In this document: one piece after another, positions 36,444 to 64,000 of the stretch | How positions within the stretch are numbered: the first letter of the stretch is position 1 | Layout of the letters: every line of letters begins with the position of its first letter | Assembly: GCA_025449115.1 (NCBI GenBank) | Contig: JAHLKC010000135.1 | Location: 50,730 to 114,729 of the forward strand | DNA length: 64,000 nucleotides | DNA from: Chytridium lagenaria | Lineage: Eukaryota; Chytridiomycota; Chytridiomycetes; Chytridiales; Chytridiaceae | Direction: 5' to 3' | Program-made: the position numbers and the translations under genes | Notes under the pieces: generated by a model | What the model saw: only the letters and a program-made list of their open reading frames with translations | What the model was told of the DNA's origin: nothing | The model's database searches: none

Positions 36444-38375
36444 ATGTCTCCGTCCCCCATCTCTACTGTGATTGCCGTGGTAGCTGGGACGACGATTGCA
36501 TTGGGGCCGCAGTGGTGGTGATTCGACGCAAGCGACGTTCCCGAGAGAGTGACGAACAACGGAAAGAAAATGATGATGTGGATGCAATGTTTCCTGAAGT
36601 ACAGGGGGTGCCGTTTCTGGGGATGGCGTTGGGATTGTTGAAAGCACAACACCCTGCTCAGTCCATTATGGATGCAACAAAGAAACTTGATCGTCTCCGT
36701 TTTGGGGGACGTTTTTTGGGATGAAGGTGTTGTTTCTGTTGGGTAATTGATGTTGTTTTAGATTTTGTTTTAGTTGACTGGTGGTATAGTGAAACTTATA
36801 ATTGCTTAGTTCTGATCAGGTAAAGTGGGCTCTAACAAAGGGGAAGGAAATATGTCACGTATGGGTGGCCCCAACGGTGGGGTCGACTATTTGGAGGAAA
36901 CTCAATGCATTTAAAGATAAAGCGGATCATCGAAAGCTTCGCAACCTTTTATCAAAAGGCATTTCCAAAAAGTAAGTTTGACCAATACCAGATATAAAGA
37001 AGATTATGCTCATTCTAAATCATTTCTACAAAACCAGCGCCATTTCGTTTTTTTATCCAGCACTTCGTCAAAACTGCTCCACAGTGTTAACCCACCTCGC
37101 CGCCTCTTCGCAGAACGGTACAAAAGACGTCCAACCTCACGAATCTGCCAAAACCTTCACCTACAACGCCATATGCTCCTTCCTCGGGCTGCGCCGACCC
37201 TTCCCATGAAGACATCTTCCTTTCTCTTCGTGACGATTTTTGGCGTGGACAAATGGACTCGGGGATCTGTTCGTGCCAGAGTCCTTGTGTGGATTTCGCC
37301 TTTCGCAAAGGGTATGAAGGCGCGTGAGAGGATTGTGGCGAAAGTGATGGAGGTTGTGAGGGACCGACGAGGAGGATGGAGAGCGGCGAGACGTTAGAGA
37401 CGGGATTGGGTATTTGATTGAAGCAAGGGATGAGGATGGGGATACGTTGACGGATGATGAGATTGCGAATAACTTTATCAACCTGTGTTTTGCGGGATTC
37501 GATACGTGAGTGTTTGTTTGGCTTTCTTAAAAAGGCTTTCATTGTTGCCCATCGCCGTATCCTGACATTAACATGTCCTATTTCGATTATGACTTTAAAC
37601 CAGCACCGCTGCCTCCATTTGCTCTATATTCCATGTCCTCACCCATGAAATTTCCACCGAAGAGCTGCGATTATTACGTACAGAAGCCCTATCCGCCCCG
37701 ACCCTCTAGAGGAGACTTCTTTAACCGCCCTCCCCGTCCTAGACGCCTTCGTCAAAGAAATGCTCCGTCTCTATTCCCCCGTCGTCGGAGTCATGAAAAA
37801 AATGGCAGAAACGACCACCCTCGAAGACGGCCGCACCGTTCGCGCAGGAACGATTCTCAACATCAGTTTCTTGCAAAATCATTTAAACGAAGAAGTCTAC
37901 CCGGATGCTGGCAAGTTTCGATTGAAGCGGTTTTTGGTGGATGAGGTGGATAAAAAGTTTCCAGGAGTTTCACGCCATTCTCAGTAGGGGTGAGGTTATG
38001 CCTTGGTCAACATTTAGCGAGGCTTGAGGTGGGAGTGCCAACACTGAGATTTCTTATACTCATGAATATTTCCAGATGAAAATGTTTACAGTGGAGCTTC
38101 TCCGTCATTATGAGCTCACTCGCGGCTCCAGGCCTTCAGGGTTTCTCAAGTTCCCCATTTACATGGCGACTCCGCATATCCGTCTTAGCAAGTGTGACGC
38201 TCTTCGGCAGTGGCAGCAACAGCAACAAATGGCCGTGAAGCAAGAGCAGATGCTTGCAAATGCAGCTGTGCGGAACAAGAAGGAGGAGTATAACGCATCG
38301 CCAAAGCTGGCACAAAAGCCGTCAGTGGATGCAAGAAGGGCCGTGATGATGTCCAAAAAGAAGGGTTTATTTTAG
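36444..38375 (+). CDS. Cytochrome P450, tandem copy 1, with C-terminal extension
   Basis: Haem-thiolate monooxygenase, ER-anchored by an N-terminal hydrophobic segment (MSPSPISTVIAVVAGTTIAL, then a basic stretch after a frame break near 36,505). I-helix INLCFAGFDTTAAS is split by an intron at about 37,507-37,604. The K-helix E-x-x-R block lies in VLDAFVKEMLRLYS (about 37,738-37,780, shifted frame). Haem-binding loop FTPFSVGVRLCLGQHLARLE (about 37,973-38,030) has the axial Cys in F-S-V-G-V-R-L-C-L-G. After the usual end of the fold near MATPHIRLSKC the protein continues for about 60 residues, Gln-rich (RQWQQQQQMAVKQEQ) then Lys-rich to the stop at 38375. Substrate unknown. Clearly paralogous to the next gene. 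Confidence 0.85.
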
Positions 38376-38858: not shown

Positions 38859-40710
38859 ATGTCTGTCGTTCCATCCTCAAACATCACTATCACGACCACC
38901 CTCATCGCTGTCGCTGCTGGCGCTGCTGGCATCCTCATCCTTCGATCCCTCTCAAAGCCTACTGCTACCAAGGATGCACAGGAATTCCCAGACCTCGATG
39001 CAAGTGGTATCCCATCATCAACACGATAAAGAGAATCATCAACGCAAAGCATCCTGGGATGGATATTGTGGAAAGAAAAAAACGTGTGGGGTCACCATAC
39101 TATTCAAGCTTTTTTGGCATTCGATTCCTGTTCCTTGTTGGGTAAGCTTATCGAATGTGTATATGTGCGGTTCTGGTATTGTGACTGACCCCCATCCCCC
39201 TTTTTTTTGGTTGCTTTGTAAAGATCAGAGTACGTAAAGTGGGCCCTTACCAAGGGTGAGGGTAGATACGTGACGTATGCTGGCCTGAGAGGTGGCAACG
39301 TCTCTTTGGACCAAATGCAATCGCTAACCAAGACAGGCTTGCGCACAGAAGACTCCGCGGTCTCCTCTCAAAAGGTCTCAGCAAGAGGTAAGAATCTTTT
39401 TGCAATGCCTCCCCAACAGCCATGCTAATATATATCATGTCATCAGCGCCATTTCCTACTTTTACCCTCACTCCGCGCAAACTGTTCCAAGATCCTCTCC
39501 CACCTCGCCGATGAATCTCAACAAGGCAAAGTCGATGTCCAACCCCTCAATTCTGCCAAGATCTTCACGTACAACGCCATCGCCTCTTTCCTTGCATGCG
39601 CCGATGCCAACGATGAAGCAACCCTCCTGACTCTCCGTGAGGATTTCCTTACCTGGTCTCAAGGTCTAGGAGACCTGTTTATCCCGAATGGCTCGGCTTC
39701 ATGTCTCCCTTTGTCAAGGCTCAGCGGCAAAGGAGAGGATGGAAAGGCCCTTGGCGTGATGGTGAAGGGTAGGAGGAGAAGATGGACAAAGGAGAGTCGT
39801 TCCAGGATGGATTGGGGTATTTGGTTGCGGCGAGGGACGAGGAGGGGAGTGAATTGACAATGGAGGAGATTAGGGATAACTTCATCAACCTCTGTTTTGC
39901 TGGTTACGATACGTAAGTTCACCTTTGTTTTAAACGTTCACAAGTCATACATATAACTGAGTTCTCATCATTCTAATAACAATCCTTTCCCCCCCCATTT
40001 TATTTATCTACAACAGCACCGCTGCCTCCATCTGCTCCATCTTCCACGTCCTCACCCACGAAATCTCCCCCGAAGAACTCACCCTCCTCCGCGACGAAGT
40101 CCTCTCTGTCTCTGACACCGTTGAAGAATCCACTCTCACCTCCCTCCCCGTCCTCGACGCCTTTATCAAAGAAATACTCCGTCTCTACGCCCCCCGTCGT
40201 CGGCGTGTTTAAGAAAATGGCCGTCGATCACGCACTTGATGATGGTAGAATCGTCAAGGCAGGGACGATGCTCAGCATCAACTTTATGGCGAACCATTTG
40301 GAAGAGTCCGTCTACCCTGACCCGTTGAAATTCAAGTTATCAAGGTTCTTGGTGGACGAGATTGATAAAAAGTTTCCCGGAGATTTCACACCTTTCTCGT
40401 CAGGGATTAGATTGTGTCTTGGCAACCAGCTTGCAAAAGTTGAGGTAAGGCATACGCAGCAACACTCTTTTTTTTTCTTTTTCCTTTGACACACAACGTT
40501 TAACACTTTTGTTATGTAGATGAAATTGTTCACTTTGAACTTCTCCGCAACTACGAGCTCACAGCTGGTTCAAAGCCCACTGTCTTCCACACCTTACCCA
40601 TCTGGATGGCAGTCCCCAACATCCGTCTCCGCAACAAGAGCATCGACGCATATGCTCGTGAGACCTCGAGGTTCCTCATAGATGTATTGTTACGCAGTTT
40701 CCTCATATAA
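38859..40710 (+). CDS. Cytochrome P450, tandem copy 2
   Basis: Paralogue of the preceding P450. Start at 38859; N-terminal anchor TLIAVAAGAAGILILRSLSK followed by a short linker and EFPDLDASGIP. I-helix INLCFAGYDT then TAASICSIFHVLTHEISPEE after an intron at about 39,915-40,016. K-helix VLDAFIKEILRLYAP (E-I-L-R, about 40,150-40,190). Then SINFMANHLEESVYPDPLKF and haem loop FTPFSSGIRLCLGNQLAKVE at about 40,388-40,446. An intron (40,447-40,519) precedes the last exon, where the frame shifts once (ELLRNYELTAGSKPTVFHTL); the stop is at 40708-40710. It lacks the long Gln/Lys tail of copy 1. Exon order and intron positions match copy 1, so the pair arose by tandem duplication. Confidence 0.87.
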
Positions 40711-42774: not shown

Positions 42775-44361
42775 TTAGACGCCCCAACAGGCATCACTAC
42801 AACCGTATCATCTCCATCATCATCATCGTAAGTCAAATTCGTCCCCACCGATACCGTTCGCCCCTTCACCACCGCAACTCCCCAACAACACCCTTCCCAG
42901 CTGCAGTTTCCACCTTCCTCGCAGGAAGAGGTACAAGAAGCACCGGTTTTGTCGCTGGCTGCTTTAAAGGAGGGTTCGAATTTGGTCGGGCCGAAGGTGG
43001 TGGACTCCGATGCGTCGGTGCGTCAACGATAAGAACAACTTTTTGAGGTTTCGCAACGGCATCGGGTGAAATGAGTGGTGTGGGTGATGTGGGTGATGCA
43101 ATGTGTTGTTTTGACGTGTTCATAGAAGCGTTGGAGGAGGATGCAGAGACAAGACCGGTCCCACCACCACCCAGTAAACGTACGACCGACGGTGATTCCC
43201 GAAGTTTCCCGCCTCTATAAATGACGGCATCGCGAAGGAGTTTCACATCGGATCGGAGGTTCTTTTCGCGTTCTTTACGGACAGAGGGGGAGATGCAGCA
43301 GAGCCAGCAGAAGATGATGGAGAGAATGATGGCGCCGGAGATGACAGAGATGATGATGATGGTGGTTTGGGAGGGACCTGAGGAGAATGAAGTGGGAGAA
43401 TTTGTTTGGATCATGGAACGGGGGAGGGAGGTTGTAGTAGTAAACGGGAGGATATTGGTGTTGGACTGGGAGGAAATGGAGGCATCGGTTAGGGGAGAAG
43501 TTGAAGAAAGAGAGTCTGTGGGAGTTGGGCCTGACGATGTAGTTGTGGAGGGCTAAGTAATGTGAGGTTAGAAAAAAATTTAATATTAAGACAATAATAG
43601 GTAGAGATCCGATTGAAGAAAAAAATAATAGTCGACATTTAAAAAGACCCAAAGCAGATGAAAGAACATTCAGAGAGAATAGATTTCAGATAATAAAAAA
43701 CATACGTCGCCTTCACTTGTTGCTCCTCCACTTTCATTGTTTGAAGACGATGTTGCCGATGGCTCAGGCTGCGACGGATTTGGACCGGGGTCGGGATTAG
43801 GCACTGTCGGTGATGGTGTCGAAGTCGGCACAACCGTTGGTGATGGCGGCACTGTCAAATCCAGTGGATTCCTCACTCCATACAAATACAGGTACAAGTC
43901 CAAAGATCCAGCCACATTCTCCCCACACATAGACGGACCCGACAATGTTGGCAACTGCCTGATATTGCCACACGCATTGCACTGGTTCGCAATGACAAAG
44001 GAACGAGCGAGTTCAGAGGCGAGAATGCAAAAACATTTGTACGAGTTTTCTTGTTGGTTATGGAGGACTCCATAAAAAATGCTGCCTTTTTCATGACAGA
44101 GAAAGTTGCATTGGTCCATGCTTGTGGTAGCGACGTCGGGGCCAGAGACGTCACCGTAGAAGAAGCCGCAGCATTGCAATTGAGTGCATTTGACGGGGGA
44201 GGCTTGGCGAGGGTACAGGTTGGTTGAGTTTGAGGGAAGGTGGGGGGAGATATCTCTGCGTCGAGGACGGGGAGGATGGGAATCTTGATGATCCCGTATG
44301 GAAATGGATGAGCCGTGTAAATGATCCATCCTTTGAACCCGGATGAGATGATTCTTTCCAA
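42775..44361 (-). CDS. WSC-domain type I membrane protein, fourth paralogue
   Basis: The 5' end is uncertain; the open frame with Met at 44361 lacks an obvious signal peptide, so an upstream exon is possible. WSC domain at about 43,890-44,190: CCGFFYGDVSGPD, DQCNFLCHEKGSIFYGVLHN, YKCFCILASELARSF, QCNACGN, MCGENVAGSLDLYLY. A Pro/Ser/Thr stalk (PSPTVVPTSTPSPTVPNPDP) is followed, after an intron near 43,560-43,705, by more Ser/Thr sequence, then a transmembrane helix TIIIISVISGAIILSIIFCW (about 43,290-43,350) with basic stop-transfer VRKEREKN. The cytosolic tail ends in an acidic run and VVVMPVGASNA at 42775 (one frame break near 42,875). The layout matches the third WSC protein. Confidence 0.72.
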
Positions 44362-45095
44362 AGGTGCTAATAGGAAGGTATCGGCGTTCCGTTGAATGAG
44401 GAGTAGAGATGGAAGAAGCCTATACTAATTTCTCCTCTTCCGCTCCTATTCTCCCTACTTTATCTTTTCCTGGTACTCTGAAGGATAGTTTCCTTTTCTG
44501 TCAAGGCAAAGGCTTGAAGTGTGAAGAAAAAGTGTTTCCCACAAAGACGCCAGTGATAACCTCAAGCGTATGAATGGAATCCGTTACCAGAAACGGATAG
44601 ATATACAATAACGCAGCAGGTAATAAAAGTGACCTGTTAGTATGATTGATCCCCAACAGGTCTCCAGCGGTGACGGCAAGGTGACGGCCCGTTTTTCACT
44701 TGATTTGTGAGGGTTTTGTGTTTAATATTATTTTTCAATAAGAGTTTGTGGGGTTGGGGGTAGAAACATAGGGGATCGAAACACCGTTTTAGGTTTTTAT
44801 TATATTTTAAATAAATATTTAATTAATTATTTACATATATTATGAATATATATTATTATTGTCTTGATGATGATGCAATTATTTAATTTATTTATTTTAT
44901 TTATTTATTTACTTTCTTCTTTTTACTCTTCTTTCCTTCTTTTAATAATTCTTTCTTTTGCATGAAAGTGTATTTTATTAATAACTGTTAACATGGGAAA
45001 TTAAAAAGAATTAAATAAAATAATAATTATGAAATGTTAAGACCAAAGGTTATATAATATTAATGAATGGGGTGACCTTGGCTGGTCAATAATAT

Positions 45096-50600: not shown

Positions 50601-51300
50601 TGAATGACGGGTTGGTGCGAAGAAGGGTCTCGACGACTCGATAGATAATATGTGCAAGATCCTGCATTGATCTTGTTGCCGGAAAGATCTTCTTTATACT
50701 GCCGGAAAATGCTTGGCAATTGTCCTAAAAATAATATGTTTTAATATTGACAAAACAAACTTCGAACACAAATTCTTACAGTAAAAAACGCGTCTGGATC
50801 TTTAAAAATGCCATGTGCGTGCCGGCCGTTTTTGAGGAACTGAAGAACCTCTTCGAATTCTTCATTTCGTGCACTAGAGGTCAGTCCCTTTTTTTTCGAA
50901 TTCAATTAAAAGGAAACGTGAAGAAAAAAGAAAAAGGAAAAAAAAAAATAAAAAAATTACATAAAACGGAGTCTCCCCTGTTTCGGTCAAAACTAGTAAC
51001 GTTCCAGTCGCCACCGGTACGTTCTTTCGCGCTGGCTCACTTAAGTAATTATCGCTTTTTGATAAGTTCGAATTTTCTGCGGAATTCTCCTTTCCTTGAC
51101 GTACTTGAAGCAATTTGACCGTCTTAAAACTCATGTCGGCAGAATATTGTTGTGCTAAAGGAAAAAAAAATGAATCGATTTGTTTAATAAAGACAATGTA
51201 TAACGTAAGATTGAAAAAATACCTGGAACATTGGCCATAACTCGCGCCGCGGTTTCTAAAACGTTGTCAATTTTGGTGAGGGCAGGGAGGATGCATCGTA
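47625..51300 (-). CDS. Large multi-exon companion protein of the recombinase, zinc-motif, 5' truncated by LTR insertion
   Basis: I do not recognise the family. Reading from the break at 51,300: LPALTKIDNVLETAARVMAN (51,224-51,290), SFKTVKLLQVRQGKENSAEN, NEEFEEVLQFLKNGRHAHGI, a helical exon MQDLAHIIYRVVETLLRTNP to NDRIAEALKKFENT (50,465-50,725), VKNVIKHCGHHCLQWPDGVE, DPFLVFAGSGLTLRLPEVDR to LERNDLARCLLPK (49,750-50,060), a Pro-rich exon with basic KRKRQ, FNAFWSHWNSQVNVRQAVTE to MQLQLRPGLEGLR (48,970-49,120), FRCPTDPAVAISMSLSRHGA, and a last exon with the zinc motif CKRCGKVQKGHGKYAC (C-x2-C-x6-H-x4-C, about 47,910-47,955) ending at 47625. About 12 exons and over 850 aa. Most splice phases match; two or three junctions (near 50,920, 50,090 and 48,420) do not by my reading. 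Tight same-strand linkage suggests it acts with the recombinase, for example in DNA binding. Confidence 0.65.
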
Positions 51301-52948
51301 TGTGAACTCTTCTGGCCCAATATCCGAAAAGTTCAGAGAAAACAATAACCAGAACCACCAAAAGTGACCTGAGCCCACCAAAAAATAACAGGGTCTCAAG
51401 CTACACTCACCAAAAATACAACAAAACCGATCTTTCTAACACCTGGGGGTCTTCACCTGCGGGAGTCTTGTTACTGAACCTGGGAGCAAGCCAAGAGGGT
51501 GCCAAGAGGCCGTTCTGAATGAGGTTGGGAGAGGATGCCAAAGTCTGTAGCAGCAAGGTACTTGGGATATAGCAGGGTAGCGAGTTCTGCAGTGTTTCCT
51601 GTTCAAACCGATGTTGCTGGCGACTTCCTTCAGGGTGGTAGAAAGAGAGAGATCTTGAGGTGCCTCACGAGATGACCAAGAGACAGAGGGATTGGGGAGG
51701 TAATTTGGGGACAGCAGAGTTAAAACGAGAGGTCTTTTTATTCTTCAGTCCAAAACTTCTGAGGACCTTCCACACAAAAACTGCCCCTTTTTATAGTCAT
51801 TTCCCTTCACAAAATTAAGTTACTATATACAATATGTCTTTCATCCTCCCTCCTCAGCCCTTTATCAAAGTTCTTGTTCTTTTTCTAAGTTGCAGCTTCA
51901 TCATTGGTTCCTCGCGAGGGATAAGGGTGGCCAAGGTGACGCCGAGGGGAAGGGGTGGGCTGGTGATATATTCTTTACCATGTAGGGGAGGTCTGGTGGC
52001 AGTCTTGGGTCCCAGAAGAGGAAAGGCAGCATGGATGGACTATTCCATGACTACACAATCCAACCTAAAATATCCTGTCTTCTTAGCACACCTGTTGTCC
52101 TTCCAGGTGGGCGCTATTCAATTGGTCAATACTTAGACCCCTTGAATAACCTTGTATGCCTAAAATCCACCCATGGGATGATAGGCGCTTATCATTACCT
52201 TTTCCAGTAACTTGTGTGCTTCTTCCCTGGAGGGAAAAGTAAATTTAGCATGGTTTACTCCAGGATAAATGCCCTTCACGAAAAGTCCACATGGCAGGTG
52301 CTTTTTTTAATGTCAGGAACTTGTCGCGTCACGTCGCGCCAACATAAAACAGTGAGTTTTTGCATGAAATGAGGAAAATATGTGCTTTCCCTTCTTCATA
52401 GTTTATGAGGTCATCCTGTCATCAAAGAAGACCCAAAATTGGTATCAGGAAACTGTATCCGGTGTAGCATGTACTGGGACATGTGGCGGCTGAATTCGCC
52501 AAGTTAACGGCTTGGTTCAAAGCCCCAAAACCAGGTACTCTAAACCTCCGTGAGCTCTTTTTCATGACTTTCTGTGTTAAACTTGTCAGATTTATTTCTC
52601 AAAAATAAATAAATTTCATAATTGACTATCAGTGATTTTGCACGGAGTTCATATTTCTAAAGCCTTGATGTTGGCACTTTGCTGTGGTCCCTATACTCTG
52701 GTGTAACTGATAGACGCGTTCTGACACGTCAAGGAGATTCAGTTTCTTCTCCTCTTCATTCGCTGTCAACAGTTTTTCTCTGAGTTGTTTGTTTACTCTT
52801 TTATGTTAATTTTAGTCTAAGTCTTTTGCCCTCTGGTTTATCCGCGCCTATATGCGGACGTGTCAAGTGAATAAAGCCTTATTCTCAACCTGTTTGGTTT
52901 GGTGTGATTATTGGTCTTTATTGACCGTGAACCATCATGAAGTTCACA
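51301..52948 (-). repeat. Long terminal repeat (3' LTR of the minus-strand element), 1,648 bp
   Basis: Begins TGTGAACT and ends AGTTCACA, a perfect 8-bp terminal inverted repeat with the TG..CA ends typical of LTRs. The first 458 bases match 63,544-64,000 with only three one-base length differences. The bases before it are GCATCGTA, so the target duplication, probably 4-6 bp ending in CGTA, should be found after the other LTR outside the window. Confidence 0.93.
51788..51795 (-). promoter_or_regulatory. TATA box of the LTR promoter
   Basis: The minus strand reads GACTATAAAAAGGGG here. Position and strand fit a pol II promoter driving the element; transcription would start roughly 30 bp further, near 51,755-51,765. 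The matching site in the 5' LTR would be about 30 bp beyond the window end. Confidence 0.65.
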
Positions 52949-53003
52949 GGGTCCAGCTTCTTTAAAGACTGTCATTATATTCATTTCTTTGTAGATCTCT
53001 TTT

Positions 53004-53975
53004 TTAATGCAGCTTTACTTTGAGTGTGCTGGAAATATTTCCTGTATTCAGACTCCTTAGTCTGTTTATTGCTTTCCCAGTACGGGCAACGGATTCTTTT
53101 GGCAGGTCATCTTCATCATGCCAATCGTTATAGGATGACGGCCAGGATTTGTATTTAATCTCATATTGATAAGGCATTCCGTCATATTTAACGTGTTTTA
53201 CAACTTTTTCAATTTCATATTCTGGATCCTCTTCCTCCAACGTTTCGTCAAAGTCATCATCAAAACGGCGTCTTAAGAGTGGATTCACTCCGCTGCTAAT
53301 TTGTCTGCCTGGAGGTCGTTTTCGAACGATGGTGCAATCTTCCCATTTTTTGATTTCTGCTTCATAGTCATCTTCTGCTTTCATTGCAGCTTCTTCAGCT
53401 GCCGTAAGAGGTTTTCGTGATGAATATGGTCTCATTCGACCACGATGAGATACTCTACCCATAATACATTGTCCAGGGAGCGTTTCAACTAACTGAAACT
53501 TCTCACCTTCTTTGCCAATAACCCTCATGGGTCCGGACCATCGGAACATGAATTTTGAGTTAAGGGGAGACGATCCTTTAGCAGCACGCAGTGGTACGGC
53601 TAGCCATACTCTATCACCTTCTTTAAAGTCAAACTCTCGGTCTGTGGTTTCTGAGCGTGTTTTCATACGTTCCTGTGCTTTCCTGTTATTCTCTGCGGCA
53701 ATGCCTCGGGCTACGCGTAGTCTGTGGATTAATTCTATGCTAAAATCGGATAAACCGGCGGTTGGGTTGTCTTCCAAAACTTGTTGTACGTTATCTGATG
53801 GCATCAAACGTACTGAACTTTCGTCGGTTAGTGCTAATGTTAGAGGTGCATGTTCTAAACTTTCCGCAGTGAAATCCAAAGTTATTGGAGAGTTGGAGTG
53901 GACCATAACGGTGTGCCTGATGCTATATGTTGATCCATTGGGTCCAGAATTATATTTCTTCCGTAGCAAAGACAT
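53004..53975 (-). CDS. Pol C-terminal part: GPY/F module and chromodomain
   Basis: C-terminal end of the Pol polyprotein. After about 75 residues belonging to the unassigned insert, the integrase C-terminal module shows IELIHRLRVARGIAAENNRK, REFDFKEGDRVWLAVPLRAA and FMFRWSGPMRVIGKEGEKF (53,475-53,740), the SH3-like DNA-binding fold that ends in a G-P-x-x-V/I box. A chromodomain follows at about 53,075-53,240: EYEIEKVVKHVKYDGMPYQY, EIKYKSWPSSYNDWHDEDDL, with aromatic residues at the usual methyl-lysine cage positions. Chromodomains of this type guide integration to marked chromatin. The frame differs from that of the integrase core, with a break between 53,882 and 53,975. Confidence 0.88.
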   Translation of the reverse strand: MSLLRKKYNSGPNGSTYSIRHTVMVHSNSPITLDFTAESLEHAPLTLALTDESSVRLMPSDNVQQVLEDNPTAGLSDFSIELIHRLRVARGIAAENNRKAQERMKTRSETTDREFDFKEGDRVWLAVPLRAAKGSSPLNSKFMFRWSGPMRVIGKEGEKFQLVETLPGQCIMGRVSHRGRMRPYSSRKPLTAAEEAAMKAEDDYEAEIKKWEDCTIVRKRPPGRQISSGVNPLLRRRFDDDFDETLEEEDPEYEIEKVVKHVKYDGMPYQYEIKYKSWPSSYNDWHDEDDLPKESVARTGKAINRLRSLNTGNISSTLKVKLH

Positions 53976-54948
53976 CCATGTGGTGTCAGGGAGAATAGGT
54001 TTTCATATTGCATCATCCTGAGGGTTATACCTGGCGACGTATAAATCTTAAGTGTAAGGTCAATCTCTCGACTGTCTTTTCGCTCAAACTGAAAAGTTCG
54101 TGTGCCAGGATGTATATACGGCGGCCATTGTGGTCGTCGTCTTCCTTTTTGTATAACTTTATCAGCGTTTCTGTCATGTATAATGTATAAAATGTCAATG
54201 TTATGTCGGCTGATCATTTGCCTTAGCATTTCGTCAGGTGGTAAGTCCACGGGGTGGTCATATAACTTCTTTGCAGCTGACGTAAGTGCTGTCTTCATGT
54301 TTTTTACACGCCAAACAACTATGTGCGGAGAAATGTCTGTGGTGGTGGCAAGGTTCTCTTCCACTAGATGCTCAATGGCTAAGGGGATGTCATCATTTTT
54401 GTCGTCATCAGGACTTTTTATAAAATTGTTTGGAGGGGGGTCTAATTGCTCGGCAATATCGCCAAAGAATAAGTCTGCAGGGACGCGTGCATCACGTCCA
54501 AATTGCAAGAAGAAGGGTGTATCTCCGACGGATGGTTGGACAGTTGTCCGATATGCAAAAAGAACATAAGGGATAAACTGATCCCAGTCATCGTTTAAAT
54601 ATATGTCGACATAACTTCTAAGCATTTGACAGAGAGTTTTGTTGAATCGTTCTACCAGTCCATTTGATCTGGGGTTGTAAGGCATTGAAAAGGTTTTACG
54701 TGCACCAAGTATTCGCGAAATTCTCATCATCAATTGACTGGCAAATGGCTGTCCTCTGTCAGTTTGAACGTACAAGGGGATACCATATCGACAGAAAGCT
54801 TCTTCAACTAGGACTCTGGCAACAACGTCCGCTTCAAGGGATGGAACAGGGTAGGCTTCAGCCCATTTTGTGAAGTGGTCAGTCAATACAATGATATACT
54901 TGTTTCCTCGCGCAGAGTTCTTAAAAGGGCCAACGGCGTCTATGCTTA
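53882..54948 (-). CDS. Pol: integrase catalytic core followed by an unassigned insert
   Basis: Integrase core (RNase H fold, D-D-E). The first Asp is in AVSIDAVGPFKNSARGNKYI (about 54,890-54,945, upstream of the first Met), the second in VQTDRGQPFASQL, and the Glu in PRSNGLVERFNKTLCQML. It continues with FIPYVLFAYRTTVQPSVGDT and PFFLQFGRDARVPADLFF (to about 54,470). From there to about 53,760 lie some 230 residues not found between core and GPY/F in ordinary Ty3 integrases, including HIVVWRVKNMKTALTSAAKK and IDILYIIHDRNADKVIQKGR. A one-base break separates it from the H2C2 part near 54,946, and another near 53,900 from the C-terminal part. Confidence 0.88.
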
Positions 54949-56004
54949 CCGCTCCCAGGGTGTTTCACCTGCTGGCACTGGTCTGATTATTCCTAATCGT
55001 TTATAGGTGACGTCTTTTGCTTTAACGCAGGTTTCACATGACTTTACATGATCTTTTAAATCGGCATTTACTGTGGGCCACCAAAATCGCTCTAAAAATG
55101 TTGGTCGTATTTTGCTGTCTGATAGATGTCCACCAAACAGGTCGTCATGTAAGTATTCGAGAACATCTCGTCGTAATAATTCGGGTATACATATTGCGAT
55201 TCTTTGAGCATGATGCCTTCTCAGTGGGTATGATGGGTTTAATGAGACAAAGTACAATACTTTCTCGTGTAGTATCATGGTTTTGGACGCGTTTATGACG
55301 CGCTCACGTAGTTCATTGTCTTCTGGAAGCACTTTGTTTTCCATGAAGTTTATTACAGCTCCAAACAAAGGGTCTATTCTTTGATTTGTGCAGAGTTCAT
55401 CCCGCTGAATTCCGAACAGCGGGAAGTTGTATGCCTGAACTCGTTCCGAGTCTGAGTTTGCTAGTATTTCCGCAACAAAACCGTCATCAAGTGATTTATC
55501 AATTTTAAAATGTTTTGTCGTTTGATTGTCCAGCCTCAATATAACTTCTAATGTGAGGTGATCGCTACCCTCGTGCATATCTCCATTGGTTATAACAATA
55601 TCACTACCACGTTCAATATTTCTGTCGACTAAAACATAGTCAATTCGGCAGAAAGGCTTCTTTCCGTATTGCATGTCCTTACACGTGAATCCATGTTGTT
55701 TTGGGTACTGTTCGCGATAAAGATCTCTAAAGCCCTGGTTGATTAATTCGTTCATCCACTGTTTTTCGGTTTGGAGAAAACCAGAAACATTAAAGAATCG
55801 TTTAGGATTTGAAACGTCTAAATCCGATCTGATCATGTTGAGGTCGCCTACCACAATAACATTTCGATCTTTCTTTAAGTCTTCAATGTACTGGGCTAGT
55901 TCAGTGCAATACTTTACTTTATACTCATAGCGCGTCTCATTTCGGGTTCCATTGGGATGTAAAGATTGACCAAGCTGAAGTTTGTCGTATGTACGGTTAT
56001 GCAA
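54946..56004 (-). CDS. Pol: C-terminal half of the exonuclease III-like domain and integrase H2C2 zinc finger
   Basis: Begins in the middle of the APE-like domain: NVIVVGDLNMIRSD (Asp and Asn of the G-D-x-N motif, about 55,838-55,865), CRIDYVLVDRNIERGSD (about 55,615-55,655) and the catalytic end GSDHLTLEVILRLDN (S-D-H, about 55,535-55,566). A linker of about 100 residues follows, then the integrase zinc finger: LRRDVLEYLHDDLFGGHLSD, TFLERFWWPTVNADLKDHVK, SCETCVKAK (H..H..C-x2-C, about 55,020-55,170). The frame ends at 54946 immediately before the integrase core, with a one-base shift. Its join to the N-terminal half is broken by one base near 55,950-55,956. Confidence 0.88.
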   Translation of the reverse strand: MHNRTYDKLQLGQSLHPNGTRNETRYEYKVKYCTELAQYIEDLKKDRNVIVVGDLNMIRSDLDVSNPKRFFNVSGFLQTEKQWMNELINQGFRDLYREQYPKQHGFTCKDMQYGKKPFCRIDYVLVDRNIERGSDIVITNGDMHEGSDHLTLEVILRLDNQTTKHFKIDKSLDDGFVAEILANSDSERVQAYNFPLFGIQRDELCTNQRIDPLFGAVINFMENKVLPEDNELRERVINASKTMILHEKVLYFVSLNPSYPLRRHHAQRIAICIPELLRRDVLEYLHDDLFGGHLSDSKIRPTFLERFWWPTVNADLKDHVKSCETCVKAKDVTYKRLGIIRPVPAGETPWER

Positions 56005-56330
56005 CGTCCTTCTGGGTCATCGCTGACTCGTCTATCAGGACCTTCATCGTATGAAATGGTCATTCCTGAGCGAATGAAGGTTACCACACCATTAAAACCC
56101 GTGGCGGGGTCGTTAAGAAAACAATCCCAACCTTCTAAGTTCTGCATAGCTTCTATCAAAGCGGCTGATTTTTTGAGACCTAAGCGCGTTTCTTGTAGAC
56201 AAACTATGTCAAATGGTTCAAGGATACTTTTCAATGATTCTAGCTTGCTTGTTAAAGCTTGTTGTTTTACTTTCTTTTTCAAAAGATTCGCTAGACCATT
56301 TACATTCCATGTCATTAGTCTGTACTCAAC
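55540..56330 (-). other. Exonuclease III / AP-endonuclease-like domain inside Pol
   Basis: About 260 residues, the usual size of the exonuclease-endonuclease-phosphatase fold. All metal-binding and catalytic positions can be seen: Asn in MTWNVNGL (56,293-56,315), Glu in DIVCLQETRLG (about 56,190), the F-N-G-V-V-T-F-I-R strand (about 56,070-56,100), Y-I-P before the frame break, Asp and Asn in GDLN, the Asp in R-I-D-Y, and the final S-D-H. Such domains act as the nicking endonuclease of non-LTR (LINE) retrotransposons and as DNA repair APE enzymes. Here it lies between RNase H and integrase. Whether it came from a LINE or from a host APE/ExoIII gene cannot be told by eye. Confidence 0.9.
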
Positions 56331-58055
56331 TACGGCATCTGGTTGCAATTGTGAATTTTGGAAATTGAATATGTCCAAAGAGTTTTTTGTTTGTTGAAGA
56401 TCCGCAGTCCAATGCGGTGTTGGGGGGGGTTCCTTTAAGGGACCAGTGTTAACAGAAAAAATTCGTGAAAGTGCGGAATTTTCGGCATCAGAGACGTCTG
56501 GACCATACGTTGGCTCAAAATCCGACGGAGTTTCGCCGAATTCTTGAGTAGAGGTGTCTGTGGTATAACCTTCATCTATGCTATCAAGACATACTCGTGA
56601 AAGCGTGTCTGCGATAATTTGATCTTTGCCGGGGTTATGAACAAGGTGCATATGATAATCCTGCAGCGCATAAGCCCAACGGGCAAATCGGCCTTTCAAG
56701 CTACCTTGTTTGAACAATGAAATGAGGGCAGAGTGGTCTGTTTCGACCGTGAATTTTCGATTATATACGTAATGATCAAACATGTCAACCGCCCAAACCA
56801 CAGCTAATCCCTCACGATCAGTATTGGAATATCCCTTTTCTGTTTTTGATAGGGTTCTGCTAGCATAAGCAACAGGTTTTCTTTCAAGCCGAGTGGTGCC
56901 TGGTTGCTGTGCAAATAGTGCGGCACCGAGGCCAAGGGCTGAAGCATCACAACTAATAATTAGCTGATCTGTTTCCTCTGGAATATGTAAGGTCGTATCT
57001 TCTTTTAGGATAGTCCGAAATGCTTGAAAAGCGTTATCAAGTTCTGGAGTCCATTTGAATTTAGCAGTACTGTTAAGCAGCGCGTAAAGGGGAGCGGCGC
57101 GTTCATGAAAGTTGGGGACAAACTTCTTTAGAAAGATCGCAAACCCGAGAAAGGTGTGGACTTCTTTAGTGTTCTTTGGTGTTGGCCAGTTTTCTAGCTT
57201 AGCAAGTTTCTTTGGATCTTTCATGATCCCACGTCGCGAGATACGATAACCAAGTAAGGGTAATTCAGAATGTAAAAAGTGGCATTTCTTAGGTTTGACT
57301 TTAAGACCATATTCTTCCACACGTTCAAAGACGCTGGTTAGGCGCTCAAAGTGTTCTTCTAGTGTTTTTGAAAAGATGATCACGTCGTCTATATATACCA
57401 TGCAATGAACCCATTTGAGTCCAGCCAAAACCAAATCCATTGCTCGTTGGAATGTTGCAGGGCTATTACAGAGTCCGAACGGCATGACATTATATTCGTA
57501 CAAACCTGAGTTTGTGACAAACGCTGTCTTAACTTTATCTTCCTCCTTTACAGGGATTTGCCAAAACCCAGATAAGAGGTCAATCGTGGAAAAATAAGCT
57601 GAGCCACCAAGGAGATCAAGAGTGTCGTCTATACGGGGTAATGGGTATCTATCCTTCACGGTGATTTCGTTCAAGGCCCGGTAGTCAGTACAGAACCTTA
57701 AAGATCCATCCGCTTTCTTTGCCAAAGTTACACCGGCTGCGTAGGGTGATCGACTAGGTCGTACAACCCCATCGCCTAGCATGGCGTCTATATGCTCTCT
57801 TATAATTTTGGCACGTTCAATGCCCTCGTGGTATGGAGCTGAATTGGGGATTCGACTATGTGGTTTGAGTTCAATTGTGTGCGCTGGTACTCTTTTGCTA
57901 CCAGTAGGTACCTTGGGTCGGAATATATTTATGAATCGTGATATGAGACTTCTGAGTCGTGTCTTAGAGTCCTCGTCTAAGTGGGATGTATCCATCTGGC
58001 CAAAGATTTGGTCAAGGGTGTCAAGTTCACCTGCTTGTGGACGCATGTAGTCCAT
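55914..58055 (-). CDS. Pol: reverse transcriptase, RNase H and N-terminal half of the exonuclease III-like domain
   Basis: RT domain (about residues 75-255): YAAGVTLAKKADGSLRFCTD, ALNEITVKDRYPLPRIDDTL, FSTIDLLSGFWQIPVKEED, NVMPFGLCNSPATFQRAMD and the catalytic YIDDVIIFS. The connection has LGYRISRRGIMKDPKKLAKL. RNase H (about residues 345-470) shows SCDASALGLGAALFAQQ (Asp), KGYSNTDREGLAVVWAVDMF (Glu) and VETDHSALISLF (Asp), closing with IIADTLSRVC. An acidic Ser/Thr linker (about 90 residues) precedes the nuclease domain, which starts MTWNVNGL and includes CLQETRLG. The frame stops at 55914 by a one-base shift in the middle of the nuclease. The RT type is Ty3/gypsy. Confidence 0.95.
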   Translation of the reverse strand: MDYMRPQAGELDTLDQIFGQMDTSHLDEDSKTRLRSLISRFINIFRPKVPTGSKRVPAHTIELKPHSRIPNSAPYHEGIERAKIIREHIDAMLGDGVVRPSRSPYAAGVTLAKKADGSLRFCTDYRALNEITVKDRYPLPRIDDTLDLLGGSAYFSTIDLLSGFWQIPVKEEDKVKTAFVTNSGLYEYNVMPFGLCNSPATFQRAMDLVLAGLKWVHCMVYIDDVIIFSKTLEEHFERLTSVFERVEEYGLKVKPKKCHFLHSELPLLGYRISRRGIMKDPKKLAKLENWPTPKNTKEVHTFLGFAIFLKKFVPNFHERAAPLYALLNSTAKFKWTPELDNAFQAFRTILKEDTTLHIPEETDQLIISCDASALGLGAALFAQQPGTTRLERKPVAYASRTLSKTEKGYSNTDREGLAVVWAVDMFDHYVYNRKFTVETDHSALISLFKQGSLKGRFARWAYALQDYHMHLVHNPGKDQIIADTLSRVCLDSIDEGYTTDTSTQEFGETPSDFEPTYGPDVSDAENSALSRIFSVNTGPLKEPPPTPHWTADLQQTKNSLDIFNFQNSQLQPDAVVEYRLMTWNVNGLANLLKKKVKQQALTSKLESLKSILEPFDIVCLQETRLGLKKSAALIEAMQNLEGWDCFLNDPATGFNGVVTFIRSGMTISYDEGPDRRVSDDPEGRCITVHTTNFSLVNLYIPMEPEMRRAMSIK

Positions 58056-58072: not shown

Positions 58073-60175
58073 TTATTCGTGAAGGTGGTCGAGAAAGGTT
58101 ATCTCCATCTGATATTCATCTAATTCGGCAGATTCGGACAAATCGGTTGGGTAGCCATTGTACTCGTCATTAAGTGTGGGACCTTCGGTAGGAGTTACCA
58201 GGTACTTCTCACCAGGCATATCTCGATTTGTGGAATCTACAGGCTCTGGATGTTTGCCTGTGTTAATATAGTTGTCTAGGTAACTAGACAGGGAATAATT
58301 GTCTGTAACCTCGGTGCGTGTATGAACAATAAACATTATGTCAAGTAAATAATCGGAGTTCGGGTGATTGACAAGTGAATAAGGGATGTTGACAGCGGAG
58401 GGGATTATTGAGGAGGCTTTGTCTTCAACGTAAGCGACGACAGTACCTCTCTTTAACGTTTTGCGGGTGTTTCCTGTATAGGTTATTGGGTACTTGAACA
58501 TTGTTTTTGATGCATTCCCGTAATGAGAGAACAATATTGATTCAGGGTATATAGAGGATTCATTTAAATGCGCATTAGGTGAGAATTGATATCTTTCAGT
58601 CAATGACGTTAGTGGTCGTGTCAATCTGACTTGAACCATTTCGTGCTTTAGCTGCGGCCTGGACTTAAGACCTGTGATTGTATAATCTGAGCGATTCTTT
58701 CGTCGATCGGCTTTTGACGGCCGGGGGTCAAGCCTGATGTCTTCAGTAGTTACTACAGCAACTAGTGTATCTGTGGGTTCTTTGCTTGAATAAAAAGCGA
58801 GTGGCTCATATCGGGTTATATTGTTAGGGGAAACCGATTTGAATTGCATCGGGATTGAAATTTCGTCACAAGTGTCATCAGCGGCATCCAGCGGGAATCT
58901 CACAGTTTCTCTTCTGAAGTCTAATGTCATTTTAAAACCATGTAACGCAGGATTACCAAGTAAGATAGATAAGAAACTATCATCTAGGATGAAGAAGTCT
59001 ACGTATTGCCAGACCGGGGAGTTGCCTAGTCCAATGCGTAAAGTACATTTTCCAAGAATTGGTCTTGTTCCACCGATTCCGCGGGAGGCATAATTATTTG
59101 GTACAGGACGGGTAGGTATTCTATGTCCGCGAGTCCGGAGAGTTTGAAGGAACTGGGCACTTATTATGCTTGACGTCGCGCAAGAATCAATGGGGATTCG
59201 GTCATAAGGTGTGCCATTAATGCGACCTTGGATTCTCGCCAGCGTGTATGGGCGAGGATTAGTGTCCGATTTTGCAAAGTCTCGTATTTGTATATCTTTG
59301 GTTATCTCACCATTGTCGTCTAAGCCAAACATGGTTACATTTGAATTAAATGACACGTGTCTGCAAGGTGGTTCACCAGCTATGGGAATTACAAGATTGG
59401 TGGATAAAATTTGTTCTGTTTCCATGTTCTGGGAAGTATCCTTCAAATTGTCACTAAGTTCCGTTCTGGATTTTCTTGCTTTCTGCATGCGTCTCTTAAC
59501 GGTGTGGTAATTGTTGAGTTTCTGTTGCCATCGCTTTAAGAGGCGTTCCTCAGCTTCTTCTCGTCGAAGGGCAAGTATTCTCTCGTCAAGATGTTCTATA
59601 TCGCCAATCAAAGAGTAGAGAGGGTCCTGATTTTTGGCGCACGTCTTTCTTTTTAGTATGTGATATTGAGGAGCTTCATTTTCTATGGCTAGAGCAATCT
59701 CTTGCTTTAGCTTGTTATTATTCTCTTTGCTTGTGTCATTATCGGTTGTTGATGGTGTTTGTGATGGTCGGATAAGCCGGAATTGTGGTTGAAATTCAAA
59801 GTGTATATATGCAGCAGGGACTTTGAGAGTTTTTATGGTACCAATAAGAATTTCAGAGCTGTTTGGTGTAGAACCGATATCCAGTAAGGTCTTTTGGTAT
59901 TGTACATTGTCGTTGGGTATTCCACTTAAGAACCATGCTATTTTAATTGAGGTTTTGTTTGGTTCACGACATACTACAATTATTTCTGGGCTTCTACAAC
60001 TCATGTCTAAGTATGTGCTATGCCAAGGGCCTGGGAGACCATAATCGGTAACAACGATGGCTTTACACTGCATAAGTTTTATTTTTTGACTAACTGCATA
60101 ATAAGTGCAGTCGTTTGGGGGGGGTTCCAAAAAAAGGGCTGCAAATGGCAAGGTGCCAGTGTAAGCGGAAAACAT
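58073..60175 (-). CDS. Pol N-terminal part with variant retropepsin
   Basis: A 700-residue open frame. The N-terminal 280 residues are unassigned and include a charged coiled-coil-like stretch (ILALRREEAEERLLKRWQQK). The protease fold lies at about residues 320-430: RIQGRINGTPYDRIPIDSCA, TSSIISAQFLQTLRTRGHRI, WQYVDFFILDDSFLSILLGN and PALHGFKMTLDFRRETVRF. The catalytic Asp is present, but the usual D-S/T-G is D-S-C here. The C-terminal 250 residues before RT are unassigned. The frame ends 18 bp before the Met of the RT frame and overlaps it by about 40 bp when the RT frame is read upstream. That could be a programmed shift or another indel. Confidence 0.8.
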   Translation of the reverse strand: MFSAYTGTLPFAALFLEPPPNDCTYYAVSQKIKLMQCKAIVVTDYGLPGPWHSTYLDMSCRSPEIIVVCREPNKTSIKIAWFLSGIPNDNVQYQKTLLDIGSTPNSSEILIGTIKTLKVPAAYIHFEFQPQFRLIRPSQTPSTTDNDTSKENNNKLKQEIALAIENEAPQYHILKRKTCAKNQDPLYSLIGDIEHLDERILALRREEAEERLLKRWQQKLNNYHTVKRRMQKARKSRTELSDNLKDTSQNMETEQILSTNLVIPIAGEPPCRHVSFNSNVTMFGLDDNGEITKDIQIRDFAKSDTNPRPYTLARIQGRINGTPYDRIPIDSCATSSIISAQFLQTLRTRGHRIPTRPVPNNYASRGIGGTRPILGKCTLRIGLGNSPVWQYVDFFILDDSFLSILLGNPALHGFKMTLDFRRETVRFPLDAADDTCDEISIPMQFKSVSPNNITRYEPLAFYSSKEPTDTLVAVVTTEDIRLDPRPSKADRRKNRSDYTITGLKSRPQLKHEMVQVRLTRPLTSLTERYQFSPNAHLNESSIYPESILFSHYGNASKTMFKYPITYTGNTRKTLKRGTVVAYVEDKASSIIPSAVNIPYSLVNHPNSDYLLDIMFIVHTRTEVTDNYSLSSYLDNYINTGKHPEPVDSTNRDMPGEKYLVTPTEGPTLNDEYNGYPTDLSESAELDEYQMEITFLDHLHE

Positions 60176-60234
60176 AGAAGATGTGAAAAAGGTACTACTA
60201 AAAGGTGTTTCACCATCAACAAGAGGAACATGAA

Positions 60235-62250
60235 TTATGTGTTGAGATGTAAACGAGGTACTGAGGGTAGAAAAGATACTGCTAGAAATACTGAAGTGGT
60301 TAAGAAGTGCGGTTGAGTATCGAGGTCAAACTGAGGATGCATTAGATGACGTTTGATAAACTGGTGAAGTATACCTTCTTTGGTGTCAGCCTGAGAGGCA
60401 GCAATACGCTGGCGTGCAACAGGCAGGTGAGGGCAACCCATCAGAAGATGGTCAGGGGCATTGCAAAGCATGCAAGTCAAAGGTGGGCGGCGACCTTGGG
60501 GGTTGGGAAAACCAGATTGGTAGTTGTTGTCGCGGTTCATACCAAAAGCGAAAACTTGTTCAAGGTTTTCAAGACGTGACGTGAGATCCGAATTGACTGC
60601 AAGAACAGTGTGGTCTGCCTGTGCGGTAGGGACGCGTCGTTCAGTGGAAGGAGCTCGAGTTTGAACTGTTGAAGCAGGTGGCGTTCGGTAGCGGGAGCGG
60701 CTGCGGTCGCGGTGTGAACGTCGTTTGGACAAGTGTTTCTTTGCCTTCTTGCTTTTGGACTTCTTCTTTTTTCTGCGAGCGTCATTGGAGGAATCAGAAT
60801 CTGATGAGGTGGATGAGCTGGAGCTCGAAGAAGATGATGAAGAAGACGTATCATCATTAGAGCTCTCAGTATGCAGGTCGCGGCACAGTGAGATGCTTGT
60901 TTGACAATAGCTTCTAGGGTGACAGCTTTGTCATGCCAGGTGTGGTGGGAAACCGAGGGACCAGTTGAAGAGGTAGACGGGACCTTATAGAGGTGATCCT
61001 GAAGTTCACTGGAAATTTTCTTCTGGCGACAGCCCGTAATAAAGAGGTGTTTCAACATTGCTTCATCAACACGATCAGCAGCCGGGAGGCGGTTGTTCTT
61101 TTCGCGGAGCGAGGATACAGCGTAGGTGGGTCTGGTGCGTTTGGGTTTCCAACTGAACTCAAGAACCAACTTTTTGAGTTCAGAGTCGGTGCGGCCCATG
61201 CCAATATACATCGTGAGGTAAGACACAGTGCCGTCCCAAGTTTTGAACGCTTCCGGACCATTGTCGTAGATGTGAGAAGCCTTATCGGCAAAAAGGCTGT
61301 CGTTGATGATGGTGTTGGCAAACTCATCCCGAGTGGAGAACGGTGAATCAGAATCCAAAGTCTCTGAAGTGGTGTTGGTCTTCATGAGGTTCTCAACACG
61401 TTGCAAGAACTTCTGTACATCAGATGGCTTGTCTGTCTTCAGACGCATGTCGCGGGCTCTCTTGAGTACATTCTTAAGGCGTTCGTCTTTGGAGAAGGCC
61501 ATGGTGGAGAGTGGGGCCCTGAGGGGTGTGGGGGCCAGTTGGGTTCGGCGAAAGGCACGCGGGACAAAGCTTGAGGTGTCTGCTGTATTGATATGGGGTG
61601 TCAATACTGATTCATGTAATAAGGAGGCTTACCCGAAGGAATATTCTTTAAAGGTGTGCTGAAATCACTGGTCGGCAAGGGTTGTGATGTCCTTACAACT
61701 GAGGGGGTACTTTCGTTGTCAGGTGGGTTTTTGTACTCTAGCTTTATAGCACGGGGAGTTCTAAAATCATCAATGTCACAGGACTCTTGTTTTATAGTGG
61801 TTTCAGGCAGTGGGGTGCTTGTAAGAGATGGGAATCGAATTCCAAAGAGAGTCGAAACTCTGAATGGTTTTGTCTGCCGCAAAAGTAACATTGGGGTCAA
61901 GTGGTGAGGTATCATAGTCCTCATTGTCGTAAAGTTCTGGCTCAACATTGAAAATGTTGCCTAAGCTTGTTCCAATGCTTTCCATAGTGGTCAGAAAATC
62001 GCGACATAATAGAAGAACTTCGTTTCTGTGGGGTGTAGTCAGTCTGCTTGATATGCTTGTGTCGTGATTGCAAGCATTCAGTGTCATAAGTTCTGTCTTG
62101 AGAGGAGTTTTTCAGTCTGTGGGACTTCATCAGTGGAGTTTGGAGAACAGTCCTCATTTGATGCAGTGGGCTCAGTGGCCTGATTAATTCAGGATTAAGG
62201 CGCGCTGAGCGTCGAGGTTTACCCACTATGTTTCTTTTTTGTTTTGTCAT
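60235..62250 (-). CDS. Gag with CCHC zinc knuckle, several frame breaks
   Basis: Structural capsid/nucleocapsid protein. A basic N-terminus (MTKQKRNIVGKPRRSARLNP) and an acidic region continue through shifted frames (breaks near 62,030, 61,850 and 61,610). The helical capsid-like core is MAFSKDERLKNVLKRARDMR, KPSDVQKFLQRVENLMKTNT, TWDGTVSYLTMYIGMGRTDS and AMLKHLFITGCRQKKISSEL (60,990-61,505). A frame break near 60,880 leads to a poly-Ser stretch, a very basic Lys/Arg/Ser block (SKRRSHRDRSRSRYRTPPAS) and the nucleocapsid knuckle CMLCNAPDHLLMGC (C-x2-C-x4-H-x4-C, about 60,430-60,475). The 3' end is taken as the stop of this frame at 60235; how Gag connects to Pol is not clear. Confidence 0.8.
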
Positions 62251-62493
62251 TCTATCTTTTTTTATGATGTAGGTAAGTTTGTTTTTATTTCTTTTTTTGT
62301 GGGTCTTATATGAAAAAGGAAATATTTTTGGATTTATTCTATGATTTTTTTAAACTGGCACAACAAGAATTGCTTAGAAAGGAGGGACTAGGGGGAACCT
62401 AGTAAGATGATACTACTAAAACAGGTACTGATGTAAAAGAAAAGCTAGAGAGCCAAAAGTCGCGAAAAAGGAAGCAGAACACGAGATGTATCG

Positions 62494-63290: not shown

Positions 63291-63543
63291 GGAAAAAAAA
63301 TAGCAGAGTTTAGGCTGGTTGGCCGAAAAATGAACAAATGTGGAGTAGATAAGAGTTTGAACTCACTTTTGTAGTAATGCAAAGCCGTTGGGAGTTGAAT
63401 AGACTGAAAAAAGTCGTTAGGACCCAGAAGGGAACGTAAGACCGTGTTTTAAGTGGTCGCTGATCAAAAAAAAAGTGCCGAAAGGCGAAAAAAATGGTCA
63501 GGGGTCGAGAGGAGAACACCTCACACGTTAGGTTGGGCCCCCC

Positions 63544-64000
63544 TGTGAACTCTTCTGGCCCAATATCCGAAAAGTTCAGAGAAAACAATAACCAGAACCA
63601 CCAAAAGTGACCTGAGCCCACCAAAAAATAACAGGGTCTCAAGCTACACTCACCAAAAATACAACAAAAACCGATCTTTCTAACACCTGGGGGTCTTCAC
63701 CTGCGGGAGTCTTGTTACTGAACCTGGGAGCAAGCCAAGAGGGTGCCAAGAGGCCGTTCTGAATGAGGTTGGGAGAGGATGCCAAAGTCTGTAGCAGCAA
63801 GGTACTTGGGATATAGCAGGGTAGCGAGTTCTGCAGTGTTTCCTGTTCAAACCGATGTTGCTGGCGACTTCCTTCAGGGTGGTAGAAAGAGAGAGATCTT
63901 GAGGTGCCTCACGAGATGACCAAGAGACAGAGGGATGGGAGGTAATTTGGGGACAGCAGAGTTAAAACGAGAGGTCTTTTTATTCTTCAGTCCAAAACTT
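63544..64000 (-). repeat. Right LTR (5' LTR of the minus-strand element), truncated by window end
   Basis: Begins TGTGAACT and follows the left LTR base for base for 457 bp, to a point matching 51,758. The only differences are single-base length changes in A, T and G runs (equivalent to left positions near 51,435, 51,692 and 51,697). The remaining roughly 1,190 bp lie outside the window. The sequence next to it on the internal side (minus strand GGGGGGCCCAACCTAACGTG) should hold the primer-binding site; I see no obvious tRNA 3'-end complement there. Confidence 0.95.

Follow-up and report, generated by a model that had tools for sequence, protein, structure and literature searches.

In LTR retrotransposons the set of pol domains is rather stable, and LINEs have neither an integrase nor LTRs. 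The AP endonucleases ExoIII and APE1 cut AP sites and clean blocked 3' ends, and ExoIII also degrades RNA in hybrids. Additional enzymes have been described in some LTR elements: AlkB occurs in Ty3/Gypsy elements of orchids, where it is located in a separate ORF (PMC9289625), and a dUTPase occurs between PR and RT in LTR elements of fungi, rotifers and planarians (PMC6431247). Another paper describes 'complex transposons' with additional domains and ascribes them to multiple insertions (PMC3248453), and the accessible text of a fungal chromovirus survey that includes one chytrid copy (Batrachochytrium) contains neither the word endonuclease nor the word exonuclease (PMC2864245). A Ty3/Gypsy element with a captured enzyme is a known kind, and a nuclease of the EEP superfamily between RNase H and integrase appears to be new: we found no description of the order RT, RNase H, EEP and integrase in one LTR element in the open-licence literature, mostly at the level of titles and abstracts, in keeping with the initial annotation of this DNA, which knew of no named Ty3 lineage with this order.

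The window (the whole stretch of DNA analysed here, 64,000 nucleotides of Chytridium lagenaria) carries an element that, judged by its domains, is a chromovirus-like LTR retrotransposon of the Ty3/Gypsy type. On the minus strand, Pfam matches follow each other over 57719-53097 in the order RT (YIDD), RNase H, EEP, H2C2, rve and chromodomain, within these features:

51301..52948, minus strand: 3' LTR of 1648 bp, TGTGAACT...AGTTCACA
53097..53219, minus strand: chromodomain at the C-terminus of pol (PF00385, 31.0 bits against a cut-off of 25.1)
53885..54454, minus strand: unassigned region separating the integrase core from the chromodomain (no Pfam match)
54455..54949, minus strand: integrase core (rve, D-D-E; PF00665, E 2.4e-11 over 54949-54671, the extent past this profile being an estimate from the aligned segment)
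55015..55188, minus strand: integrase zinc finger H2C2 (PF17921, E 7.2e-16)
55540..55995, minus strand: C-terminal part of EEP with GDLN, RIDY and SDH (TIGR00633, 83.5 bits over 55995-55540)
55950..56321, minus strand: N-terminal part of EEP with WNVN and QET (TIGR00633, 45.7 bits over 56321-55950)
56655..57053, minus strand: RNase H (PF17917, E 2.1e-30; PF17919, E 4.5e-27)
57240..57719, minus strand: reverse transcriptase with YIDD (PF00078, E 8.9e-39)
58073..60325, minus strand: open frame upstream of RT with a putative aspartic-protease-like motif (sequence reading; no Pfam match)
60235..62349, minus strand: putative gag-like region in several frames (sequence reading; neither of the two frames scanned has a gag match in Pfam)
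63544..64000, minus strand: 5' LTR, cut by the contig end, which is the window end (99.35% identity to the 3' LTR)

The matches to RVT_1 and RT_RNaseH are those of a Ty3-type pol, the integrase with its H2C2 finger and DDE core (PF17921, PF00665) lies downstream of RNase H with EEP in between, and the chromodomain sits at the C-terminus of the integrase, as in chromoviruses. The motifs named in the initial annotation (YIDD, WNVN, QET, GDLN, RIDY and SDH) are present in the window sequence, and the LTR retrotransposon with EEP between RNase H and integrase that it proposed is borne out by these profile matches and by copies across the genome. PF03372 matches both EEP parts of the window, with profile positions 1-84 on the N-terminal part (E 3.4e-6) and 134-225 on the C-terminal part (55902-55558, E 2.8e-6), and the whole domain in L039, a copy elsewhere in the genome, has a Pfam E of 3.4e-19, well beyond a chance resemblance. 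By the extents of the NCBIfam xth profile the whole EEP domain of the window spans about 56321-55540 on the minus strand. Its two parts overlap in different frames, with a frame break near the end of the N-terminal part.

The single Pol frame that had been read here does not hold for the window copy, whose pol is broken over several frames: one ORF (58115-55914) covers RT, RNase H and the N-terminal part of EEP, a second (56016-54946) the remainder of EEP and H2C2, a third (54964-53882) the integrase core and a fourth (54002-53004) the chromodomain. It does hold elsewhere in the genome, in L039 and L040. Contig C6 carries a near-identical copy with both EEP parts in a single frame, open over 323 aa, and the break inside EEP is therefore private to the window copy. 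The two LTRs are 99.35% identical over 459 aligned positions, which indicates a young insertion. The stretch 50800-53000, which includes the 3' LTR, has 49 matches in the genome. Neither an Rfam match nor a tRNA was found in the window, and the counterpart in L040 of the region between integrase and chromodomain (L040:3129-4118, minus strand) matches nothing in Pfam and nothing significantly in the PDB.

Three further observations concern the surroundings of the element. Two further occurrences of the flank outside the 3' LTR (window 50800-51300) lie on contig C18, accompanied there by the LTR, and C32 has one at 74%, so that the element lies beside or in another repeat. A direct duplication of ~1 kb with 66% identity occupies window 37035-38011 and 39444-40426. 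A cysteine-containing open frame at 43670-44419 (minus strand) reads as a putative WSC-type secreted or surface protein.

The same arrangement is found throughout the genome searched (41.9 Mb in 356 contigs). L039 (contig C95) has RT, RNase H, EEP, H2C2 and rve in one open frame of 1,604 aa, and L040 (contig C198) has these domains and a chromodomain in 2,573 aa, the frame being open at the contig end; the chromodomain scores below the cut-off of 25.1 bits in both (20.7 bits in L040, 18.7 in L039). At nine places (C95, C198, C76, C234, C155, C11, C137, C185 and C238) one unbroken frame covers both EEP and H2C2, as judged from equal open-frame lengths in the two profile searches. Genome-wide there are 105 Exo_endo_phos and 84 Integrase_H2C2 matches. 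An EEP match lies 307-943 bp upstream of H2C2 at 45 of the 84 H2C2 places, and at 29 of these 45 RNase H is matched 1.3-2.6 kb further upstream of H2C2. The 39 places without an Exo_endo_phos match include 25 with RNase H, at a distance of 289-545 bp in 24 and of 2,066 bp on C16; with the xth profile C16, C10 and C138 gain an EEP match. This spacing count took all 84 H2C2 rows, 78 of the 85 RNase H rows (the seven weakest omitted) and all 105 EEP rows plus four more, one of which (C340) repeats a place.

Two clades of EEP-bearing elements can be told apart in the RT-RNase H tree. Clade I forms one group (98/99), and clade II pairs with C160, which carries no EEP (99/96). A single clade of all EEP elements on RT was rejected (p-AU 6.6e-5, with long branches), and the nuclease was therefore either captured twice or passed between lineages.

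Within clade I, EEP is found within 3 kb upstream at 44 of 55 integrase places, a place being defined by at least 42% identity to L040 (96 of 146 rows used). The EEP rows of this count were a hand-picked part of the 117 xth rows (clade II and some others omitted) and one row more; omission can only lower the figure, and 44 is thus a lower bound. The 11 places without EEP are contig-end, truncated or fragmentary, six of them as read and five by position and size. Among the six that were read, two lie at a contig end and three are truncated, two of them within the zinc finger and one between this finger and EEP; the last starts just behind EEP. The stretches fetched at these six places contain no RNase H. 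As for the other five, one starts at base 54 of its contig and the rest are fragments no longer than 338 bp. Among the clade I integrases, no copy was seen in which RNase H is joined to the integrase without EEP. Two clade I RTs (C115 and C109) have no EEP or H2C2 match up to 6 kb downstream, contig C115 offering only ~4.3 kb there. In clade II, EEP is present at all seven integrase places (at least 49% identity), and its EEP-less relative C160 has the ordinary short spacing between RNase H and H2C2 (478 bp). EEP pieces from 55 loci entries, some of them overlapping, form nine clusters at 80% amino-acid identity; pieces below 80 bits or shorter than about 105 aa, among them that of C94 of clade II, were omitted from the clustering.

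As a separate observation, in several clade I elements the stretch from RNase H to EEP includes a conserved domain of ~90-105 aa, once or twice, at residues about 855-945 of P0001 in L039, at about 979-1334 in L040, and also in L048, L035, L012 and others. An ASCH/PUA reading of this domain was dropped: one single-sequence PDB match has an E of 0.14 (5y6b, which we take to be an ASCH protein), and neither the PDB profile search nor Pfam gave a match.

The element nuclease looks ExoIII/APE1-like and not LINE-like, to judge from profile scores, structural matches and active-site residues. The equivalog cut-off of the NCBIfam ExoIII profile (xth, TIGR00633), 99.05 bits, is exceeded by L039 (148.4), L040 (127.8) and L041 (128.0), and by 28 places in the genome; below it are L043 (72.0), which is cut by a frame break, and the two parts of the split window copy (45.7 and 83.5). 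The best of 55 PDB matches to the EEP of L039 are ExoIII and APE1 (9e-29 and 1e-23), and a PDB search with two LINE-like nucleases from this genome gave nothing at 1e-3. Residues were compared in an alignment of 45 rows, 20 from elements and eight LINE-like, the latter so named by reading the nuclease sequence; many element rows are gapped at contig ends or frame breaks, and residues were scored where covered. In APE1 numbering, the 20 element rows retain the catalytic residues N68, E96, Y171, D210, N212, D283, D308 and H309 at every one of these positions that they cover. Clade I rows retain the AP-site residues N174, R177, W at 266 and W280, with the exception of the window family, where the C6 copy has Cys at 266 and 280 and the substrate may therefore have shifted. 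Clade II shows the AP-site changes N174A and W280F. The LINE-like rows lack W280 in eight of eight cases and N174 in seven of eight. The nuclease had initially been taken for the non-LTR type and the element for a chimera of two retrotransposon classes; xth score, PDB matches and AP-site residues all speak against this.

The EEP tree, from which eight of the 45 alignment rows were omitted, is less decisive. It groups clade I with the proteins of the chytrids Irineochytrium annulatum and Phlyctochytrium bullatum (99/98) and sets this group apart from bacterial ExoIII, human APE1, clade II and the LINE-like rows, which branch far from the element EEP. A common ancestor of the clade I and clade II EEP has a support of 35/24. 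The tree is at the same time compatible with a common clade with LINE-like nucleases (p-AU 0.42-0.46, with long branches), so that it is profile, PDB and residues that carry the assignment to ExoIII. A LINE origin of the nuclease is disfavoured by profile score and residues and compatible with the tree. For a host APE1-like gene as the direct source, p-AU is 0.12 with clade I and 0.23 with clade II, values that neither favour nor reject it; the C71 gene takes a place among the other rows that is not decisive. Two intron-bearing genes, APE1-like on contig C71 (L095) and Apn2-like on contig C26 (L096), were read as host genes, and the host therefore seems to have AP endonucleases of its own.

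Outside this genome, a protein search with EEP, in which 8,000 candidates were scored, gave P0003 of Irineochytrium annulatum as the best match (2e-58) and bacterial ExoIII-type proteins at 3e-30 and weaker, among the 120 of 5,225 matches that were listed. A second protein search (53 matches) contained two chytrid proteins and added P0123 of Phlyctochytrium bullatum, in which EEP is joined to H2C2. Both species belong to the Chytridiales. Relatives are therefore present in two chytrids, one of them with EEP joined to H2C2. A scan of IMG/VR with P0123 gave no relative, and a search for long EEP proteins gave a single match, P0002, a bacterial fusion of ExoIII and RT.

Selection on the nuclease was estimated as Nei-Gojobori dN/dS, reported only for pairs with at least 90 codons and at least eight changes; many pairs are saturated in dS. 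Among seven copies (C324, C234, C120, C229, C184, C185 and C37), dN/dS of EEP is 0.04-0.08 at an informative divergence (dS 0.7-1.1), and the nuclease is under purifying selection in this group of families. In young pairs (dS up to about 0.2) the EEP values range from 0.02 to 0.49, and some pairs of families other than that of the window reach 0.3-0.5. The window family gives 0.49 for EEP (one pair) and 0.91-0.96 for the integrase (two pairs), with few changes and no clear sign of selection, an expected outcome for copies that are young and decaying. That both enzymes are conserved across copies, as the initial annotation had it, and that the nuclease is no one-off insertion is supported by the 44 clade I and seven clade II places, by purifying selection and by the two chytrid relatives.

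In the window family the LTRs have TG...CA ends; nine of their places were inspected. Five are solo LTRs with outside flanks at both ends, and four of these show 4-bp target duplications (GCGC, GAAT, TGGC and AGCT); in two of these (L087 and L088) one LTR end is mutated and was placed by eye. At the fifth, AGCT is displaced by one base. The remaining four comprise three with internal element sequence as one neighbour and one at a contig end. Marks of target-primed insertion were not seen in this family. The TG...CA ends and the 4-bp duplications point to integrase-type insertion and speak against target-primed insertion; the integration of the window family looks to be of the ordinary integrase type, and the unusual integration route envisaged at first is not supported by these marks. 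The stretch after the 5' LTR (window 63480-63543, minus strand) starts GGGGGGCCCAACC, and its first 25 nt lack the TGG with which a tRNA primer site usually begins. Self-priming between the LTR and the primer region was considered and set aside, the match being no better than chance, and the RNA of the primer region folds in an unremarkable way (z 0.48).

With this in mind, we hold it to be moderately probable that the pol of fungal Ty3/Gypsy (chromovirus-like) elements captured, in the interval from RNase H to integrase, a nuclease of the ExoIII/APE1 type, and that this nuclease acts on the element's own nucleic acid before integration. The model builds on a domain that has a fixed place in pol, an ExoIII/APE1-type sequence with its catalytic residues and selection in one group of families, and on the integrase-type marks of the window family. 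According to this model, the nuclease would travel with RT and integrase and would work on the nucleic acid of the element prior to integration, cutting AP sites, cleaning blocked 3' ends of the cDNA and perhaps removing leftover RNA, and the integrase would thereby receive usable cDNA ends. It would not serve as a target-nicking enzyme that primes reverse transcription. By analogy, the dUTPase and AlkB of other LTR elements fit such a role in nucleic-acid hygiene. Several points go against the cDNA-repair reading: the element protease could release EEP to act elsewhere, an ExoIII-like 3'-5' exonuclease could also damage cDNA ends, AP-site residues are changed in the window family and in clade II, the window family shows no clear sign of selection and some young pairs of other families reach 0.3-0.5, and two clade I RTs (C115 and C109) have no EEP match downstream. 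A broader proposal, which we offer tentatively, is that two distant Ty3-type lineages independently fixed an ExoIII/APE1 nuclease at the same pol seam (or passed it between them), which would make them retrotransposons with a base-excision-repair step of their own, used for cDNA maturation or for the choice of damaged DNA as a target.

A nuclease that steers integration, by binding or cutting AP sites or other damage in host DNA where the integrase of the same polyprotein then inserts or uses the repair machinery, would suit a frame in which EEP precedes the zinc finger of the integrase, and the AP-site residues that are mostly kept; the chromodomain, however, already provides a targeting part, and we regard steering as unlikely. 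We see an equally low probability for a nuclease that is mainly a remover of RNA beside RNase H, acting on RNA-DNA hybrids or on the primer as ExoIII might. E. coli ExoIII has RNase H activity, EEP comes after RNase H in pol, and the missing TGG past the 5' LTR would agree with such a function, but the element's own RNase H matches its Pfam families well and the self-priming match stays at chance level. Less probable still is a chimera in which a LINE-type endonuclease nicks the target and primes reverse transcription, providing a second integration route. The EEP fold is indeed the one used by LINEs, both enzymes are present and the tree allows a common clade with LINE-like nucleases; against this, xth score, PDB matches and AP-site residues point to ExoIII/APE1, and the solo LTRs have TG...CA ends and 4-bp target duplications, making target-primed integration unlikely. 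Insertion of a LINE or gene into a single element, by chance or by nesting, which the several broken frames of the window copy might suggest, has a negligible probability and is ruled out by the nine EEP clusters, the two RT clades, the EEP-H2C2 join in another chytrid, the unbroken frames and the dN/dS of 0.04-0.08.

Returning to the captured nuclease acting before integration, its fixation in two clades and its selection where measurable suggest a step of the Ty3 cycle that standard elements leave to the host. This step may be the repair or trimming of cDNA or the use of damaged target sites, alternatives that are testable with a single isolated enzyme. The annotation rule by which EEP beside RT means a LINE needs correcting.

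With the Ty3 elements and chromoviruses (Metaviridae) the elements described here share RT and RNase H (the closest PDB match of the L040 RT is yeast Ty3 RT, E 7e-83), the H2C2 and DDE integrase, the chromodomain, the LTRs and a short target duplication. They differ in the ExoIII/APE1-type nuclease added between RNase H and integrase, in the one or two further conserved domains before EEP in several clade I families and in that no TGG primer site was seen within the first 25 nt in the window family. Like the ExoIII/APE1 AP endonucleases (xth), they have the catalytic and most of the AP-site residues, with three copies over the equivalog cut-off, but their EEP is part of a retrotransposon polyprotein and no stand-alone repair enzyme. 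APE-type LINEs also have an EEP superfamily nuclease beside the reverse transcriptase, whereas the LINE-like nucleases of this genome lack W280 (all eight) and N174 (seven). The bacterial P0002 (933 aa) likewise combines an ExoIII-type nuclease and an RT in one protein; its RT is group II-intron-like by precomputed Pfam, its nuclease is N-terminal and no integrase domain is listed, and it is apparently a separate pairing of ExoIII and RT. The elements with AlkB or dUTPase are also LTR elements that fixed an enzyme of nucleic-acid repair or hygiene, the enzyme itself being a different one.
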